Notes under the pieces: model-generated
Seen by the model: only the letters and a program-made list of their open reading frames with translations
Told to the model about the DNA's origin: nothing
Databases searched by the model: none
Made by a program: the position numbers and the translations under genes
In this document: positions 2,827-28,327 of the stretch, piece after piece
Position numbering within the stretch: position 1 is the first letter of the stretch
Layout: every line of letters starts with the position of its first letter
Virus record (IMG/VR): IMGVR_UViG_3300044756_000026
Coordinates: 1-53,671 of that record
DNA: 53,671 nucleotides
Reading direction: 5' to 3' (one strand)
Origin: a virus

Positions 2827-4332
2827 ATGAGCTACCCCATCATGTTGCCGTCTTTGAGTTTTAAGACGCATGACCTGATTACTGAGTTGCAAAACCAGTT
2901 AGCCAGGTATCAGGTCATCAACCAGATTCTCAAGTCATTCTACGAAGCATCGCACATGCCGGCGAATCGTGGGTTCTCGGTGCCGCCAGTGATGAAGGAC
3001 ATTGTCACTGTCATGGGCTGGCCCGGCACGATTGTGGACGTCATCGACGAGCGCCTCGAATGGCAAGGTTGGATGAACGCTGACGGCTCGGTCTCTTCGG
3101 ACAATGCCAACAAACCAATGTCGTGGCACGACGAGGTTTACCTGGAGAACCAACTTGGGGTAGAATCATCGCTCGTGCATCTTGACTCACTCGTCTACGG
3201 ATGTGGCTTCGTTTGTGTGGGAACTCGGTCCCCCGACGATAAGAACAAAACGCCACTAATCACCATTGAATCCACGATGTGGACTACCGGGATTTACAAC
3301 GTACAGAAACGGTGCTTCGATGCTGTCATCGCAGGCCGCTGTAACAACGAGGGTAACCTCGTCGCTGCGACACTCTATGAACCCAACCGGACTACTCAAT
3401 TGTCCCGTAGTGGCGTGTATGGTAACACGTGGTTCATCAGCGACTGGGATGATCACAACTTGGGTCGTGTCCCCGTCGTGCCCTTCATTAATCGTCCTAC
3501 GGCTTCGCGCCGCGAGGGACGTTCGGAAATTACTCGTGCGATTCGGTGCTATACAGACATAGCAATCCGCACGATAATGGGAATGGAGACGAACCGTGAG
3601 TTCTTTAACAGCCCTCAACGTTACCTTCTCGGTGGGAATGAAGAAGCCTTCACAGATCAAGCGGGAAACCCAATCAGCCCCTGGCAGGCTGTTATGGGAA
3701 GGGTATGGGCGCTTGAGCGAGACGAGAACGACGAGCTACCCACTGTGGGTCAGTTTAACCCATCTGCTGCCCGTCCGTATCTGGATCAGGTTCAAGGTCT
3801 CTCTCAACTCGTCGCAGCAGAAGCGGGTATTCCTACTACATACCTCGGGTTCTTCTCAGAGAATCCCTCGAGCGCCGATGCCATCCGAGCCCTTGAGTCT
3901 AGACTCATTAAGCGGACTGAGCGTCGGCAAACCAGCTTCGGACGCAGTTGGAATGAAGTGGGAGAGCTCGCCGCTCTGATCGGCAAGCAACCCGAGATGA
4001 GAGTCGACAGCCAATGGCGAAACGCAGCAACTCCGACCCAACAGGCAGACGCAGACTCCGCAATGAAATTGGTGTCTACAAATATCTTGCTTCCCGACTC
4101 CGAGGTCACGTACAAGCGGATCAACCTCACACCGATCGAGAAGAAGATTCTCGCGAAGGAAAAGAAGAAGGCGGAAGCGAAGGCACTAATTGAAGGGGTG
4201 TTGAATGGACCACAACCAGTACCGCCTGGTACTCCAAAGGCTGGAGGAGGTGATGGTGCAGGGCTTGTGGGCAGCAATGGACGCGTACCCGCTGCGGCGG
4301 GATCTAGTGGAGGTGCTCCCGGAAATCGTTGA
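2827..4332 (+). CDS. Portal protein
   Basis: A 501-residue portal protein of the SPP1 gp6 type. Twelve copies would form the ring at the capsid vertex through which DNA passes. Support comes from position after terminase, length, the mixed alpha/beta N-terminal two thirds, the aromatic-rich central stem/clip region, and a Lys/Glu-rich helix followed by a Gly/Pro-rich tail typical of portal C-termini. The ATG at 2827 is preferred to an upstream in-frame ATG at 2764, which would overlap the membrane-protein gene heavily. The last 128 nt overlap the MuF-like gene. Confidence 0.9.
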   Translation: MSYPIMLPSLSFKTHDLITELQNQLARYQVINQILKSFYEASHMPANRGFSVPPVMKDIVTVMGWPGTIVDVIDERLEWQGWMNADGSVSSDNANKPMSWHDEVYLENQLGVESSLVHLDSLVYGCGFVCVGTRSPDDKNKTPLITIESTMWTTGIYNVQKRCFDAVIAGRCNNEGNLVAATLYEPNRTTQLSRSGVYGNTWFISDWDDHNLGRVPVVPFINRPTASRREGRSEITRAIRCYTDIAIRTIMGMETNREFFNSPQRYLLGGNEEAFTDQAGNPISPWQAVMGRVWALERDENDELPTVGQFNPSAARPYLDQVQGLSQLVAAEAGIPTTYLGFFSENPSSADAIRALESRLIKRTERRQTSFGRSWNEVGELAALIGKQPEMRVDSQWRNAATPTQQADADSAMKLVSTNILLPDSEVTYKRINLTPIEKKILAKEKKKAEAKALIEGVLNGPQPVPPGTPKAGGGDGAGLVGSNGRVPAAAGSSGGAPGNR

Positions 4333-4864
4333 GGCTGCGTCATTCCCTGCAGCAGTCGCGGCACAAACATACTACGACGCGCTGAACCTCGAGTCCGACT
4401 TCGAGTCCGATGTGTACGAAGTTCCCGACTTGGCCAAACGACTCACCGGTACAGCTTGGTGGGCGACCGGTCAAGATGCCGCACTGGAGTTGATGAAGTC
4501 AGCTGGTGTCAAAGCAATTCATGACACGGCACGCGAGACGTTGATTCAGAACGTCAAGCGTGAAGGCGGCAAGTGGTTCAGGGAACCGAAAGAAGATACG
4601 TGCCCGTGGTGCCGCCTGCTAACCGTAAAGCCGAAGATCTATAAGTCTGATCATTTGTCGTGTGCGTCGCATTACGGGTGCACGTGTGATGTTGCCGTCT
4701 TGCGTCCTGGGATGACGCGAGAACGTCCGAAACATCATCGCGCGTGGGAACGTGAATACGAACGCGCACGGACAATGTCAGCGTCCGGTACAGTTGACGA
4801 CGTGGTTAACGCCTGGGGTCAATTGCTCAAGCAAGTTGACAATACCGGGCTAGCAAGTGCATAA
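4205..4864 (+). CDS. MuF-like minor capsid protein
   Basis: A 219-residue protein of the Mu gpF / SPP1 gp7 head-morphogenesis type, a minor head protein that associates with the portal. The C-terminal half carries the family signature: a CPWC pair near residue 135 followed about 20 residues later by HLSCASHYGCTCDV, a Cys/His arrangement that could bind a metal. The N-terminal half is helical. It overlaps the portal by 128 nt, a usual arrangement for this pair. Because no separate capsid protease is visible, this or a neighbouring protein would have to support head maturation if cleavage occurs. Confidence 0.8.
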   Translation: MDHNQYRLVLQRLEEVMVQGLWAAMDAYPLRRDLVEVLPEIVEAASFPAAVAAQTYYDALNLESDFESDVYEVPDLAKRLTGTAWWATGQDAALELMKSAGVKAIHDTARETLIQNVKREGGKWFREPKEDTCPWCRLLTVKPKIYKSDHLSCASHYGCTCDVAVLRPGMTRERPKHHRAWEREYERARTMSASGTVDDVVNAWGQLLKQVDNTGLASA

Positions 4865-10208: not shown

Positions 10209-10661
10209 ATGGCGACAACTACTAGAAATGGTCGCGCACCCACGAAGGCGGTAGCAACGAAGGCAGCGGCGTCACGTCGTAAGTCGACAGCACCGTCGAA
10301 GCGGGTGTCAGATATCCCCGGCGACATTGACTTCGACTGGCGTACGATCTACCCAGCCAAGGTCAAGCTGTATCGCTACGTGAGCGAAGACAATCACATG
10401 GTCTGCTTGCCACGTTTCGAGCAACCCGGTGAAGGCGAAATCTTCGGCATGATGCTGCTGGAGAAATCGGACCAGGAAATGCTCGTGGGGTTGATGCGCG
10501 ACTTGATCAACCAGTACGCGAAGAGCCCGGAGTATGCGCTGCGGGTGACGTATGAAGCTTTGCGTACGATGCACACAGAAGGCACAGTCTCCGAGTTCCT
10601 CGAAGGGTGGGCAAAGGACGCAGGGCTCGAAGTGGAAAAATCTGTGCCGTTATCCACTTAG
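10209..10661 (+). CDS. Tail assembly chaperone G
   Basis: A 150-residue protein made without frameshifting. It has a basic, Ala/Thr/Lys-rich N-terminal tail (residues 1-33) and a helical acidic C-terminal region. In lambda-like phages the G protein and its frameshifted G-T form coat the tape measure during tail assembly. The position between major tail and tape-measure genes, and the overlapping -1 reading frame that lacks its own good start, support this. Confidence 0.82.
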   Translation: MATTTRNGRAPTKAVATKAAASRRKSTAPSKRVSDIPGDIDFDWRTIYPAKVKLYRYVSEDNHMVCLPRFEQPGEGEIFGMMLLEKSDQEMLVGLMRDLINQYAKSPEYALRVTYEALRTMHTEGTVSEFLEGWAKDAGLEVEKSVPLST

Positions 10662-11044
10662 CGCGTAAGCACGAGAGTGCGCTGCGTTGGGATCTCCTGT
10701 CGATGGGGCTGAGCCTCGAAACTGCTAGTCTGCCGTGGGGCGATTGGTGGGCTCTTGTCTCAGCCTCACCGCCGGGGTCTGCAATGTATCGCGCGGTGAA
10801 CCAAGAATATGGTCTTACCGAACATCTCCTGTGTACGATGCTAGATCGGTTGAACACGCAGATATGGATGAAAACGAAGGATGCTCACGCAGATCCTCCA
10901 CGTAATCGCCCTGAGCGTGTTCCTCGCCCCGGTGTGGAGAAGCGGCCAGATGTGCCATACAATGGCATGGGGCTACCACCGAACGTCGTTTCCATAGAAG
11001 AATTCATACGCCGACAGGCAGAAGAGCGGGAACGCAATGGCTGA
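10209..11044 (+). CDS. Tail assembly chaperone G-T, -1 frameshift product
   Basis: The reading frame at 10640-11044 lies -1 relative to the G chaperone, overlaps its end, and has no well-placed start with a ribosome-binding site. Translation slipping back by one base near 10634-10640 would fuse about 143 residues of G to about 135 residues ending in an Arg/Glu-rich helix. The T part contains LRWDLLSMGLS and WWALVSASPPGSA, resembling T-domain patterns. Expression at a few percent of G is known for this pair in many siphoviruses. The exact slip position is inferred. Confidence 0.72.
10634..10640 (+). promoter_or_regulatory. Putative -1 slippery site GGAAAAA
   Basis: In the G frame the bases read G-GAA-AAA followed by TCT. 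Slipping back one base gives GGA-AAA-ATC and enters the T frame, which is open to 11044. The A-site codon re-pairs perfectly (AAA on AAA); the P-site codon does so imperfectly. It is the only homopolymeric run in the overlap and lies 18 nt before the G stop codon. Confidence 0.6.
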
Positions 11045-23911: not shown

Positions 23912-24140
23912 CGGTACAGCAACAGCTGCACTACAAGAACAGGTTGACATCCTTGCCTGGTTGCACGCAGAGCAGCGCTTCGAGTATATGGAACTCGTTG
24001 CTCGCGTGATGAACGTCGGCAAGGTATTGGCGGGTCTCGTAGTGCAGAACGCACAACCGCAAATTCAAGAACAGCTACAGCAGCAAGTTCTCAATCAGTT
24101 GATGACCGGTGGCGTGGTCGTCAAAGATACGGGCGGTTGA
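23898..24140 (+). CDS. Hypothetical small helical protein
   Basis: An 80-residue protein, predicted mostly helical, with Gln-rich segments near residues 53-70 (QIQEQLQQQVLNQLMT). There is no true transmembrane helix, although MNVGKVLAGLVV is mildly hydrophobic. GAGGAGAAGG precedes the ATG. It lies in the slot where holins often occur, but the sequence does not support that role. Confidence 0.6.
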   Translation: MTAGNGTATAALQEQVDILAWLHAEQRFEYMELVARVMNVGKVLAGLVVQNAQPQIQEQLQQQVLNQLMTGGVVVKDTGG

Positions 24141-24631
24141 TGTGGCGATGGGGTATTAGTGTACTGACAGGGGCGCTGTTGTTCGCGCCGTGTGCTAATG
24201 CCGAACCTGATGTTGGTCCAGGTGGTGTTGGTGGGCCGGGAGGTCTTGGTGGTCCAGGTGGTATCGGACCGGACTTTGCACCTTCATCTGCTACGTTGTT
24301 CATGTGTCCGGGTCGAGGCGGCGCTGCTGATGTTCTCGGCTTTGGGGGTGGCTACTGTGACTTCAATTTCACACCAGTTAAGTTAGATACAGAAGGTCAT
24401 TATGGAGTCATGCATACCCACTGTGAATGGGGCGGCGCACGGCCATTGCTTGAAACCTGGAATTGCTGGCGAGTATTTCCTGGCCAGCCTGATCACCCGG
24501 CGCTCCCTGATCCTGATATTATCCCTGACGGCATGGGAGTTCCTTGGGCAATTCAAGGACCGGTTCCTGATGATCAGTGGCCACCTCCTGGACTGCAGCC
24601 TGGGCCAGAGTTATTGAATCCAACCGGATAG
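24140..24631 (+). CDS. Predicted secreted Cys-containing protein
   Basis: A 163-residue protein with a classic signal peptide (MWRWGISVLTGALLFAPCANA, cleavage after ANA near residue 21), then a Gly/Pro repeat region (PGGVGGPGGLGGPGG), then a domain with five further cysteines that could form disulfides outside the membrane. The ATG overlaps the upstream TGA; a TTG three bases earlier is the alternative. A phage-encoded secreted protein next to lysin could alter the envelope or block superinfection, which is speculative. Confidence 0.7.
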   Translation: MWRWGISVLTGALLFAPCANAEPDVGPGGVGGPGGLGGPGGIGPDFAPSSATLFMCPGRGGAADVLGFGGGYCDFNFTPVKLDTEGHYGVMHTHCEWGGARPLLETWNCWRVFPGQPDHPALPDPDIIPDGMGVPWAIQGPVPDDQWPPPGLQPGPELLNPTG

Positions 24632-24640
24632 GAGAAAGGA

Positions 24641-26020
24641 ATGGCATATTATTCTAAAGATGGCATCGCTATCGCCATCATTCACGAGGGTCAGCGTCGT
24701 GGCATTACCCCGAAGGGTATACAGATTGCCATAAGCACTGGCCTCGTCGAGTCGGATCTGACGATGCATTGCAATCATCAAGATCCAGAAAGTCAGAAGT
24801 ATCCGTACGACGCAATCAGCTACGACTACGATTCGTCGGGTGTGTTTCAGCAGCGCCCTGCATATTGGGGCACCGCACGGGAACGCATGGACGTCGTGTA
24901 TTCTGCAGGTATGTTCTACGATTCATTGGTAGCTCAGAGAATAGGCGATCAGGATTACAACACGGACGCGACCACACCTGGTGGCTGGGCGTATATGGTG
25001 CAGCAGTGCGCCGAGGAATACGCCTACCGCTACGATGAACGCTTCCCCGAAGCCTGTCGGATTTACGACAACTTGGCTTGGATGGAGTGCCCGCATCAAC
25101 CCGGTGAATGTCGCGTCTCTGGTGACATGGGGCCAATGGTCAGTGAGACCTGGATGACAGAAACCGACGGCGGCACAAGCTTCGGTGAAATCATTCTGCC
25201 GTACGATCACAGCATCGTGCCACAGGAAACTGGGTACTGGTGTGGGCCGGCCTCAACACAGGTCGTGCTCAACGGTCAAGGTATCTTCATCAGTGAACAA
25301 CAGTTGGCTGCTGAGATGGGCACGCACTCCGGTGGTACTGATTACATCGGACAGATAGAAATCGTGCTCGACTGGTATCTACCACACATGAATCACGTGA
25401 CAGTAGACCAACCGTATGATCCGATGAGTTACGAAGACAAGGAGCGGCTATGGGCAAACCTGATCCGCGCGATGGCTGATGAGCCCCGTGGTGGTGTGGT
25501 CATGAACTGGGTCGCACCGCCTGGGAACTATCCCATCGGCATCAAAGGATCACAGTCACCGTCTTACGGTGGCGGCACCATTTATCACTACGTAGCCTGC
25601 ATGGGCATTGACGACAATCCAAACCAGCGAGCATGCTGGATTGCAGATTCCGGCTTCCACCCATTTGGCTACTGGTGTTCGTTCGATCAGGTCAGCACAT
25701 TAATTCCACCCAAGGGTTACTGCTACCCAGCAGTTGAACCCGCAGCAGGATCAGGAGATATCGACATGGCTAACGTACCACAGGAACAATGGGACAAACT
25801 GGTTGCAGATGTAAAAGACATTCGTACACAGCTGCGCGGTCCTGATGATCAAGGATGGGAAGTGCTTGGTCAAAATTCAGCAGGACAAAACCTTTCGGTT
25901 GTTGACGCCCTCGGGTCTGTCAAGCATACCGTCGAAGGGCAGCCGCCCCCTTTCCAGAAATCCCTCCCACCCAGCCAGGTTCGGGGGAAGGTACGCCGAC
26001 CGAACGACACGCGCTCCTAA
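24641..26020 (+). CDS. lysA: Lysin A (endolysin: lysozyme-like plus C39-like domains)
   Basis: A 459-residue endolysin that would cut peptidoglycan. The N-terminal 140 residues look like a lysozyme-type fold: VESDLT with Glu37, and SSGVFQQRPAYWG, the wording of actinophage LysA muramidase domains. Residues about 190-350 look like a C39-type cysteine peptidase, with GYWCGPAS (Cys201), YHYVAC (His316) and IADSG (Asp near 336). The C-terminus is a Pro-rich linker and a basic tail that overlaps the LysB frame. AGGAGAAAGGA precedes the ATG. A slippery site at 25948 may extend it into LysB. Confidence 0.88.
   Translation: MAYYSKDGIAIAIIHEGQRRGITPKGIQIAISTGLVESDLTMHCNHQDPESQKYPYDAISYDYDSSGVFQQRPAYWGTARERMDVVYSAGMFYDSLVAQRIGDQDYNTDATTPGGWAYMVQQCAEEYAYRYDERFPEACRIYDNLAWMECPHQPGECRVSGDMGPMVSETWMTETDGGTSFGEIILPYDHSIVPQETGYWCGPASTQVVLNGQGIFISEQQLAAEMGTHSGGTDYIGQIEIVLDWYLPHMNHVTVDQPYDPMSYEDKERLWANLIRAMADEPRGGVVMNWVAPPGNYPIGIKGSQSPSYGGGTIYHYVACMGIDDNPNQRACWIADSGFHPFGYWCSFDQVSTLIPPKGYCYPAVEPAAGSGDIDMANVPQEQWDKLVADVKDIRTQLRGPDDQGWEVLGQNSAGQNLSVVDALGSVKHTVEGQPPPFQKSLPPSQVRGKVRRPNDTRS
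25948..25954 (+). promoter_or_regulatory. Candidate -1 frameshift site CCCTTTC in lysA-lysB overlap
   Basis: In the LysA frame the bases read C-CCT-TTC, an exact X-XXY-YYZ heptamer. One-base backward slippage gives CCC-TTT, where Pro and Phe tRNAs can both re-pair, and enters the LysB frame, open from 25906 to 26934. A short GC hairpin can form nine bases downstream (CCTCCC at 25963-25968 with GGGGAAGG ending at 25991, one A bulged). Function is inferred. Confidence 0.55.
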
Positions 26021-26067
26021 CTTGCTCGGGAACGTGGGCGCCTCCGGGCGTTGGCTTTCCTAGTGAT

Positions 26068-26934
26068 GTGGCCAACGGGTGCGCGGACGTCTGTGAGGAA
26101 ATACCTGTACAGGCGCCTTGGTCGTTTGGTCCACTTGGTGGTGCCGGCGACGAAGGGTTCCACTCACCTAGCTACGCGGAGTCTGTGAACATCGGTGTGG
26201 ATTGGGCAGTCGATTGGTTGCTTGCTCGACCACACCGTACATTCCTCCTAGGCGGCTACAGTCAAGGTGGTGAGTGCGCGTCACGCATTTACGAAGAAAC
26301 GCTCACGGGACGCCTACAGGGACTGCGACACAACTACGTCGGCGGGTTCACGTTCGGCAATCCCTCACGACAACTGGAGCATACGTTCCATGATGGACCG
26401 GCACGACGCGGCGTAGGTATCGCTGAGTTCAGGCTGTCTGACATGGGAGATGACTGGGCTGATGAAGTGGAACAAGGTGATATGTACGGCGCCGTTCCCA
26501 AAGGCCTATCCGGAGAGATCATGCGAGATGTCTACACTCTGTGCACTGAAATGGAAATGCATAGTGGTGCAGCAGCATTCGCGCAGACGTTCGTCTATAA
26601 CTGCATCGAGATTGTGCAGAACTTGGACGGCGATGCCCACGATGATCTGGTCGCGCTTTCTTACGACATGGGTCTGGACTTCAGTCATGCAGTCAGACTG
26701 GACACTCGTCGCATTGAACGTCGGCTTGGTGACCTGATACCTGAAGGTGCATTGTCTGTCAAAGGTATCGCGGCAGCAGTTACTGCGGCTGTCATCGCCA
26801 TCTCCTTCTTCGCTCAAGGTACACGTCCACACATCGAGTATCACATTCGCGAGGTGTTCCCCGGTCAAACCTATCTGCAGCATGCAATCCAGCATGTTCG
26901 GCACTGGGCCGGTACTCGGCAACCCACAGAGTGA
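26068..26934 (+). CDS. lysB: Lysin B (mycolylarabinogalactan esterase), N-terminus upstream of any start codon
   Basis: An alpha/beta-hydrolase with the nucleophile motif GYSQG (Ser65 counted from the GTG at 26068) and FGNPSRQ, as in actinophage LysB, which releases mycolic acids from arabinogalactan to open the outer envelope. The first strand and oxyanion segment (LLTCSGTW-PPGVGFP) are encoded at about 26,015-26,060, upstream of this GTG. The frame is open back to 25906 but has no ATG, GTG, TTG or CTG there. Either a -1 frameshift from LysA, a non-standard start, or a base error in the C-run explains this. A hydrophobic segment lies near residues 231-252. Confidence 0.85.
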   Translation: MANGCADVCEEIPVQAPWSFGPLGGAGDEGFHSPSYAESVNIGVDWAVDWLLARPHRTFLLGGYSQGGECASRIYEETLTGRLQGLRHNYVGGFTFGNPSRQLEHTFHDGPARRGVGIAEFRLSDMGDDWADEVEQGDMYGAVPKGLSGEIMRDVYTLCTEMEMHSGAAAFAQTFVYNCIEIVQNLDGDAHDDLVALSYDMGLDFSHAVRLDTRRIERRLGDLIPEGALSVKGIAAAVTAAVIAISFFAQGTRPHIEYHIREVFPGQTYLQHAIQHVRHWAGTRQPTE

Positions 26935-27282: not shown

Positions 27283-27822
27283 ATGGCGACAGCAACGCGT
27301 TCGCGCAAGGCACCTGCCAAGACGGCGGCACCTGCTCCGAAGCGTACGTCACGCGCAAAGACAACGACTGCTCCTCCGGCGAAGACGGCGAAGGCGGCAC
27401 CTGCTGCCAAGCGTGGTCGTCCGAAGGCAAGCGCCGACAAGAAGAACATCACCTGGTTGCAGGAGCACCTCGAGTCGAACCACGGCATCGAAGCCGACGG
27501 TACGAAGATCCGGCAGGTGCTGCGTCAACTCGTGAAGGACGGCGCGTTGCCGGAACGCGAGGGAGGCACGACGTACGAGTTCACGGGTCTGAAGGATCCG
27601 CAGGTCGTCGAGCTGATCAAGAAGCTCAAGAGCCCCGGTCGCAAGAAGGCAGCGGGCGCCGCTCCGAAGCGCGGACGCAAGAAGGCAGAACCGGTCGAAG
27701 AGGTCGACGAAGATGTCGAAGACCTTGATGACGAGGAGGAGTACGAGGACGAAGACGCCGACGAAGAGCTCGAAGACGACGAGGAATACGAAGACGAGGA
27801 CGAAGACCTCGACGACGAGTAA
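27283..27822 (+). CDS. Histone-H1-like DNA-binding protein with acidic tail
   Basis: A 179-residue protein in three parts. Residues 1-50 are Lys/Ala/Pro/Thr-rich and contain an AT-hook-like KRGRPK. Residues 55-110 form a compact winged-helix-like domain (ITWLQEHLESNHGIEAD, then KIRQVLRQLVKDG). Residues 112-130 are a second basic patch with RGRKK, and residues 131-179 are almost purely Asp/Glu. Such proteins may organise phage or host DNA, with the acidic tail tuning affinity. It is monocistronic with its own promoter and a UUCG-loop terminator. Function is inferred from composition. Confidence 0.75.
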   Translation: MATATRSRKAPAKTAAPAPKRTSRAKTTTAPPAKTAKAAPAAKRGRPKASADKKNITWLQEHLESNHGIEADGTKIRQVLRQLVKDGALPEREGGTTYEFTGLKDPQVVELIKKLKSPGRKKAAGAAPKRGRKKAEPVEEVDEDVEDLDDEEEYEDEDADEELEDDEEYEDEDEDLDDE

Positions 27823-27841
27823 CCCCTCGCTCGCCGCCAGG

Positions 27842-27878
27842 CAAGATGCCGGCACGGTTCGCCGTGTCGGTATTCTTG
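27842..27878 (+). terminator. Strong hairpin terminator with TTCG loop
   Basis: CCGGCACGG (27849-27857), loop TTCG, CCGTGTCGG (27862-27870) with one G-T pair, extended outward by CAAGA and TCTTG. It follows the histone-like gene by about 20 nt and precedes the next promoter by only a few bases. Confidence 0.8.
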
Positions 27879-27882
27879 AGGG

Positions 27883-27912
27883 TTGACACGCTCGAGACTA
27901 ATTTGATACGAT
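27883..27912 (+). promoter_or_regulatory. Promoter, family copy 1
   Basis: A perfect TTGACA (27883-27888), an 18-bp spacer, TACGAT (27907-27912), six bases, then an ACACACACAC-type initial transcript and GAAAGG before the ATG at 27941. It has the same layout as the promoters at 41.7, 47.5, 49.0, 49.6, 50.6, 51.2, 52.1 and 53.0 kb. Confidence 0.85.
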
Positions 27913-27940
27913 TGCATGACACACACACGAAAGGCAGAAT

Positions 27941-28327
27941 ATGTTCACACCCGAAGCAGCACGAATCATCGGGATTAAGCCGCGCACGTTACGCGCATAC
28001 CTTCGCAGCATACATTACAACACAGCCGGATCACGTTACGAGTTCACGATGGACGAGGTTCAATCTCTGAAACGAAACTACTGGGCCGGTGTTCGACACA
28101 CACCCGAACGCAAGGGCGAGTTCGTCGGCACGCCTGGAATGCCCGTGTCATACATTCTCGACCCTGACAAACGACCGATGCTAGAAGCTGAGCGAATCGC
28201 TCGCATCAACCGACTACACGCACGACTACACGAACTTGGCATGGACGTACCTCAAATGCTGGATGATGATCTGATCCGTTGCAATCGTGCTCTATTCATC
28301 TCAGTCGACAACGACGATGCACGATGA
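27941..28327 (+). CDS. Helix-turn-helix DNA-binding protein
   Basis: A 128-residue protein. Its N-terminus (PEAARIIGIKPRTLRAYLR) fits a MerR/excisionase-style helix-turn-helix, followed by a short beta segment (YEFTMDEV) as in winged-helix DNA-binding proteins and by a helical C-terminal region. It is monocistronic under a consensus promoter and converges on the leftward replication operon. It is probably a transcription regulator or DNA-binding accessory. No integrase is present, so an excisionase role is unlikely. Confidence 0.7.
   Translation: MFTPEAARIIGIKPRTLRAYLRSIHYNTAGSRYEFTMDEVQSLKRNYWAGVRHTPERKGEFVGTPGMPVSYILDPDKRPMLEAERIARINRLHARLHELGMDVPQMLDDDLIRCNRALFISVDNDDAR

Follow-up and report, generated by a model that had tools for sequence, protein, structure and literature searches.

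A conserved slippery site that appears to fuse two lysis enzymes by -1 ribosomal frameshifting in uncultured phages

In a group of uncultured phages that probably infect mycobacteria-like bacteria, a conserved slippery site appears to make some ribosomes slip back one base, so that the enzyme cutting the cell wall (LysA) and the enzyme stripping off the outer waxy layer (LysB) are made as one protein beside free LysA. We found this arrangement in an IMG/VR virus record of 53,671 bases, here called the window, and in eight further distinct loci of the same LysB clade, while three other members of that clade encode the two enzymes as a single uninterrupted open reading frame (ORF). The slip itself is inferred from these comparisons and not from a detected product, but we consider -1 programmed frameshifting the best reading of the data by a wide margin.

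The overlap of lysA and lysB in the window

The original prediction held that LysA and LysB are joined by -1 frameshifting at a slippery heptamer within their overlap, and that the first conserved segments of LysB are encoded before its first possible start codon. Both the layout and the positions were confirmed from the sequence. The relevant features are the following:

24641..26020 (+), lysA, ATG 24641 to stop 26018-26020, 0-frame product of 459 residues
25193..25723 (+), C39 peptidase domain of LysA (profile match of 355 bits)
25847..25945 (+), linker repeat region before the slip site
25934..25939 (+), GAAGGG, SD-like element 8 nt before the heptamer (candidate stimulator)
25948..25954 (+), slippery heptamer C_CCT_TTC
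25955..26020 (+), 0-frame tail of free LysA after the slip site, not conserved in sequence or length
25954..26934 (+), LysB part of the fusion in the -1 frame, which is open from 25906
26008..26037 (+), predicted LysB strand beta-1 and GTW segment, upstream of any usual start codon
26068..26070 (+), GTG, first ATG/GTG/TTG in the LysB frame, which as a start would remove 40 residues including beta-1
26254..26268 (+), nucleophile elbow GYSQG of LysB

LysA matches PF13529 (8.3e-12) and the PHROG endolysin families 1519, 6007 and 700, while the LysB frame matches phrog_102 (endolysin) at 2.4e-74, and a tblastn search with it found annotated lysin B genes in many Mycobacterium phages (1905 records with a match, all under 60% identity). 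The heptamer is read as X_XXY_YYZ in the LysA frame, and a slip there would give a fusion of 764 residues (438 codons through 25954, then 326 codons). No ATG, GTG, TTG or CTG lies in the LysB frame before GTG 26068, and the only other table-11 start codon before the core is ATC 25960. To estimate how often such a heptamer would occur by chance, we examined 11 + strand genes of the window, in which only 4 of 6124 codon positions carry one (Y = A/T, X not equal to Y), this site included, so that about 0.02-0.03 would be expected in the 38-codon overlap; conservation in relatives is the real test. The tail assembly chaperone pair of the window (10209-11044), which also overlaps in the -1 register, has no canonical heptamer in its overlap and was not informative as a control for decoding, although a GGAAAAAT stretch near 10635 may serve there. 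No tRNA genes were found. A secreted-looking Pro/Gly-rich protein of unknown function, without Pfam or PHROG match, precedes lysA (24137-24631), and downstream of lysB (27283-28327) lie a protein with a basic start and very acidic tail and an HTH protein (phrog_15118); no holin was identified near the lysins.

We next asked whether the segment before GTG 26068 belongs to the LysB core. LLTCSGTW is encoded at 26014-26037 and GVGFP at 26047-26061, and among aligned LysBs the residues A22, L24, T25, G28, T29, W30, A31, P33, G34, G36 and P38 are invariant in 13 of 13, all upstream of residue 41, the GTG. An AlphaFold2 model (alignment of 16 sequences, pLDDT 75, pTM 0.79) has a cutinase-like alpha/beta-hydrolase fold with strand beta-1 at residues 21-26, followed by the oxyanion loop. 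The best solved structure is LysB of mycobacteriophage D29, PDB 3HC7 (first in Foldseek, 2.8e-9; Z 19.2, 225 residues aligned, rmsd 3.8), with residues 19-319 of the model superposing on residues 2-253 of the chain. In other words, the N-terminus of a free-standing LysB corresponds to a point encoded at about 26002, well upstream of any usual start codon here, and standard gene calling would truncate LysB, as the form starting at GTG 26068 lacks its first strand. GYSQG, D178, H295 and H316 are likewise invariant in 13 of 13, and D178, presumably the catalytic Asp, lies in the stretch aligned to GDMYAS of 3HC7.

Relatives and conservation of the site

To find relatives, we scanned IMG/VR with the LysB and C39 alignments, which gave 13 contigs beside the window with a close LysB next to a C39 LysA (loci are numbered L below). 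A third round of LysB search brought no further close member, only more distant LysBs, all with start codons. Two pairs of contigs are near-identical (L054/L067, 2 substitutions in 10,750 columns; L070/L080, none in 1431 bases), leaving 12 distinct loci with the window. Three of these, L019 (=L004), L020 (=L006) and L021, have LysA and LysB in one uninterrupted ORF of 782, 852 and 863 codons stop to stop. The other nine (window, L023=L005, L022, L032, L067, L070, L083, L089 and L090) have LysB in the -1 frame, and all nine carry CCCTTT[A/C] in the upstream frame at the same place. In L089, a 174-codon ORF (4295-4819) that by its sequence looks like an HNH homing endonuclease separates lysA from a 93-codon linker ORF, joined on both sides by TGATG overlaps; the linker ORF still carries the heptamer before LysB, so that the fusion partner there is a linker and not LysA. 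The N-terminal lytic domain before the same C39 domain is GH19 (PF00182) in L020 (4314-6872) and another, PHROG 700-like domain in the window (24641-25150); the linker repeat (GxGWPQLG...VDAL or DAxAHI; window 25847-25945, L005:3650-4010) occurs once in the window LysA and twice in L004-L006, while LysA of Mycobacterium phage CELFI seems to end at the matching place; and a relative of the protein preceding lysA in the window precedes lysA in L005 (1663-2481).

On a tree of LysB (19 rows) the 12 loci form one clade (97/97). The window is sister to in-frame L021 (100/98), and in-frame L019/L020 nest with L083 and L070 (98/96, 94/89), so the frame relation changed at least twice while the two enzymes stayed linked. 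LysB is under purifying selection, with dN/dS values of 0.135 (L083/L019), 0.106 (L019/L020) and 0.078 (window/L021, dS saturated at 3.9), while L054/L067 (2 differences, 0.303) and L023/L032 (dS not computable) were uninformative. Considering that these are metagenome contigs, that a C run lies at the joint and that close relatives are in frame, we examined whether a sequencing or assembly error, or decay of lysB, could explain the layout. This is very unlikely: the same -1 layout occurs in nine distinct loci, the two near-identical or identical pairs come from separate metagenome records and agree at the joint, and the catalytic and core residues are kept. A sixth C at the joint, or an independent start at GTG 26068, is made unlikely by the eight further distinct loci, by the three single-ORF relatives, and by the structure and conservation that place LysB core before this GTG.

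Seven of the nine -1 loci have no ATG/GTG/TTG up to the LysB core, while L067 (GTG 5786) and L070 (TTG 5735, overlapping the LysA stop) have a usable start at its edge. In six of nine (L023, L022, L032, L067, L090, L089) the LysB frame opens only 3 nt before the heptamer, after a TGA, and L023 has none of ATG, GTG, TTG, CTG, ATT, ATC or ATA from frame opening to the core. As controls, we took the LysB loci after removal of near-copies (97%), leaving 66 rows: 13 close ones (the 12 and CELFI), 44 more distant ones, and 9 that were dropped because the start of the core did not align. All 45 others (44 plus CELFI) have a start codon in frame, and none has an X_XXY_YYZ heptamer (Y = A/T, X not equal to Y) between frame opening and core, although the profile was built from members of the clade, and the open frames of the controls are often longer, which makes a start codon easier to find there. 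L099 has A_AAA_AAG, which this rule leaves out, and also an ATG. The start codons of L067 and L070, ATC 25960 in the window, and the use or possible use of a start codon by all 45 controls leave room for separate translation of LysB, from a rare start codon or by re-initiation after LysA stops, without any fusion. We consider this unlikely, since the possible rare starts are not at a common place, and since it explains neither the invariance of the site nor the three single-ORF fusions.

Anchored on the heptamer, the nine loci share CCCCCTTT, which is the only run of adjacent invariant bases in the 97 nt compared. CCT and TTA are rare in the G+C-rich members, and TTA occurs nowhere else in the two genes of L022, L070 and L090. 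Given each locus's own codon usage, CCC-CCT-TTA for Pro-Pro-Leu (or CCC-CCT before any Phe codon) has probabilities of 0.0001-0.05, with a product of 2e-24 that is not corrected for shared descent. The motif might instead be kept because the peptide Pro-Pro-Phe/Leu matters, as the in-frame fusions also encode PPF; however, in-frame L021 encodes it as CCA CCG TTC, without heptamer, the -1 loci use CCC CCT TTA/TTC even where CCT and TTA are almost unused, and LysB would remain without a start, making this reading very unlikely. We consider it equally improbable that RNA polymerase, rather than the ribosome, slips in CCCCCTTT. Such slippage would give the same two products, and the invariant block is a pair of short homopolymer runs, but runs of 5 and 3 are short compared with the runs of A or T that are probably usual for polymerase slippage, the invariant part includes TTT exactly as X_XXY_YYZ needs, and Z is only A or C in the -1 loci. 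Finally, the DNA pattern GGTGAGCCCCCTTTM was found in 20 stretches of IMG/VR, of which 8 are joints of this family (7 in -1 loci including a near-identical pair, 1 in in-frame L105/L019) and 12 are unrelated; the pattern misses the window, L070 and L083, whose upstream bases differ.

Inferred mechanism and role of the fusion

Taken together, lysA and lysB of this phage group are best explained as one translational unit. Ribosomes would read lysA to C_CCT_TTC, where some probably undergo tandem slippage at 25948-25954 (tRNA-Leu, UUA to UUU, in most relatives) and go on through lysB, giving the 764-residue LysA-LysB protein, while the rest read on in frame and end at 26020, giving free LysA. In E. 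coli, H_HH.U_UU.Y motifs, which include C_CC.U_UU.C, rank among the most efficient; C_CC.U_UU.A, found in 6 of 9 loci, is not in the top class but shifts above 0.10% without stimulator (PMC4066793). The small GC hairpin of the original prediction is not supported as a stimulator in the window: the 40 nt downstream fold to -11.8 kcal/mol with z = -0.38, and fold energies downstream are notable only in L022 (p 0.003) and L032 (0.030), which drive the combined p of 0.005, and not in the window (0.253). An SD-like element is the better candidate and has some support, as the 19 nt ending 4 nt upstream of the heptamer pair well with the anti-SD in the nine loci (rank p 0.002-0.083; window 0.054, with a pairing of -8.0 kcal/mol for GAAGGG). 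The Fisher value of 1.8e-9 treats homologues as independent, and combined p-values of this kind overstate independence.

On this reading, complete LysB is made only as the C-terminal part of the fusion, which would keep the mycolate esterase near peptidoglycan. This anchoring role is inferred: many LysBs have an N-terminal peptidoglycan-binding part (predicted in 14 of 51 representatives, shown for Ms6; PMC8309991), and in this clade LysA and its linker take that place. The host is likewise inferred, from LysB, from LysB relatives in Mycobacteriaceae genomes and from M. smegmatis phages. More tentatively, the slippery site may set the ratio of free endolysin to a two-layer lysin that cuts peptidoglycan and the mycolate bond in cis, with LysB existing only in this conjugate and the ratio being an evolving control of lysis. 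Selection would then keep both products, so that when the frames became fused in L019 and L020 the same heptamer was kept and now yields free LysA by a slip into a nearby stop. In both loci a -1 slip would meet TAA or TGA after four -1-frame codons, but 53 of 469 and 35 of 535 other positions have a stop as near, so this is a suggestion only and could be chance; we regard this wider reading as possible but less likely than not. Mycobacteriophage lysis is described as separate enzymes acting on separate layers, and a natural single protein with both activities, made at a ratio set by the ribosome, would show that the two steps can be coupled in space and dose, and would be a natural template for two-layer lysins.

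Comparison with known frameshift sites and lysins

The mechanism is known, whereas its place and product appear to be new. In searches of open-access full text, which leave out most subscription papers and bioRxiv preprints, we found no description of a natural LysA-LysB fusion or a frameshift between the two (papers consulted include PMC3314691, PMC9671378, PMC6116114, PMC13313380 and PMC10793303). A nucleotide search of 50,697 phage records with the lysA-lysB region gave no match, and a tblastn search with the in-frame joint (155 aa) gave 3 records, none covering 80% and all only in the LysB part, so that no named phage in that collection was found to carry the joint at that sensitivity.

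Programmed -1 frameshifting in phage tail assembly chaperones (lambda gpG/gpGT) likewise joins two overlapping ORFs in the -1 register at a slippery site, gives a short and an extended product, and is conserved over many phages (PMC5009743); here the products are two cell-envelope hydrolases of the lysis cassette, which would put programmed frameshifting into the lysis cassette of dsDNA phages for a two-enzyme fusion. E. coli dnaX (tau/gamma) also has a slippery heptamer, probably with an upstream SD-like element, but there the slip shortens the product, while in the window and the 8 others it extends it; only in in-frame L019 and L020 would a slip give LysA alone, as gamma from dnaX. A Lactococcus phage lysin is spread over two overlapping genes (Shearman 1994, cited in PMC10885494), and PRFect (PMC10885494) lists lysins among genes known to contain a frameshift; the Lactococcus case appears to be one lysin in two parts, not two enzymes for two envelope layers. 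LysB of mycobacteriophage D29 has the same fold and nucleophile elbow, and Ms6 LysB is held to peptidoglycan by its own N-terminus (PMC8309991), but those are separate genes with their own start, while here the N-terminal partner is LysA, by frameshift or in-frame fusion. The closest named relative, lysin B of Mycobacterium phage CELFI, is 46% identical and lies next to lysA, but its LysB frame has start codons and about 110 residues before the core, and no heptamer.
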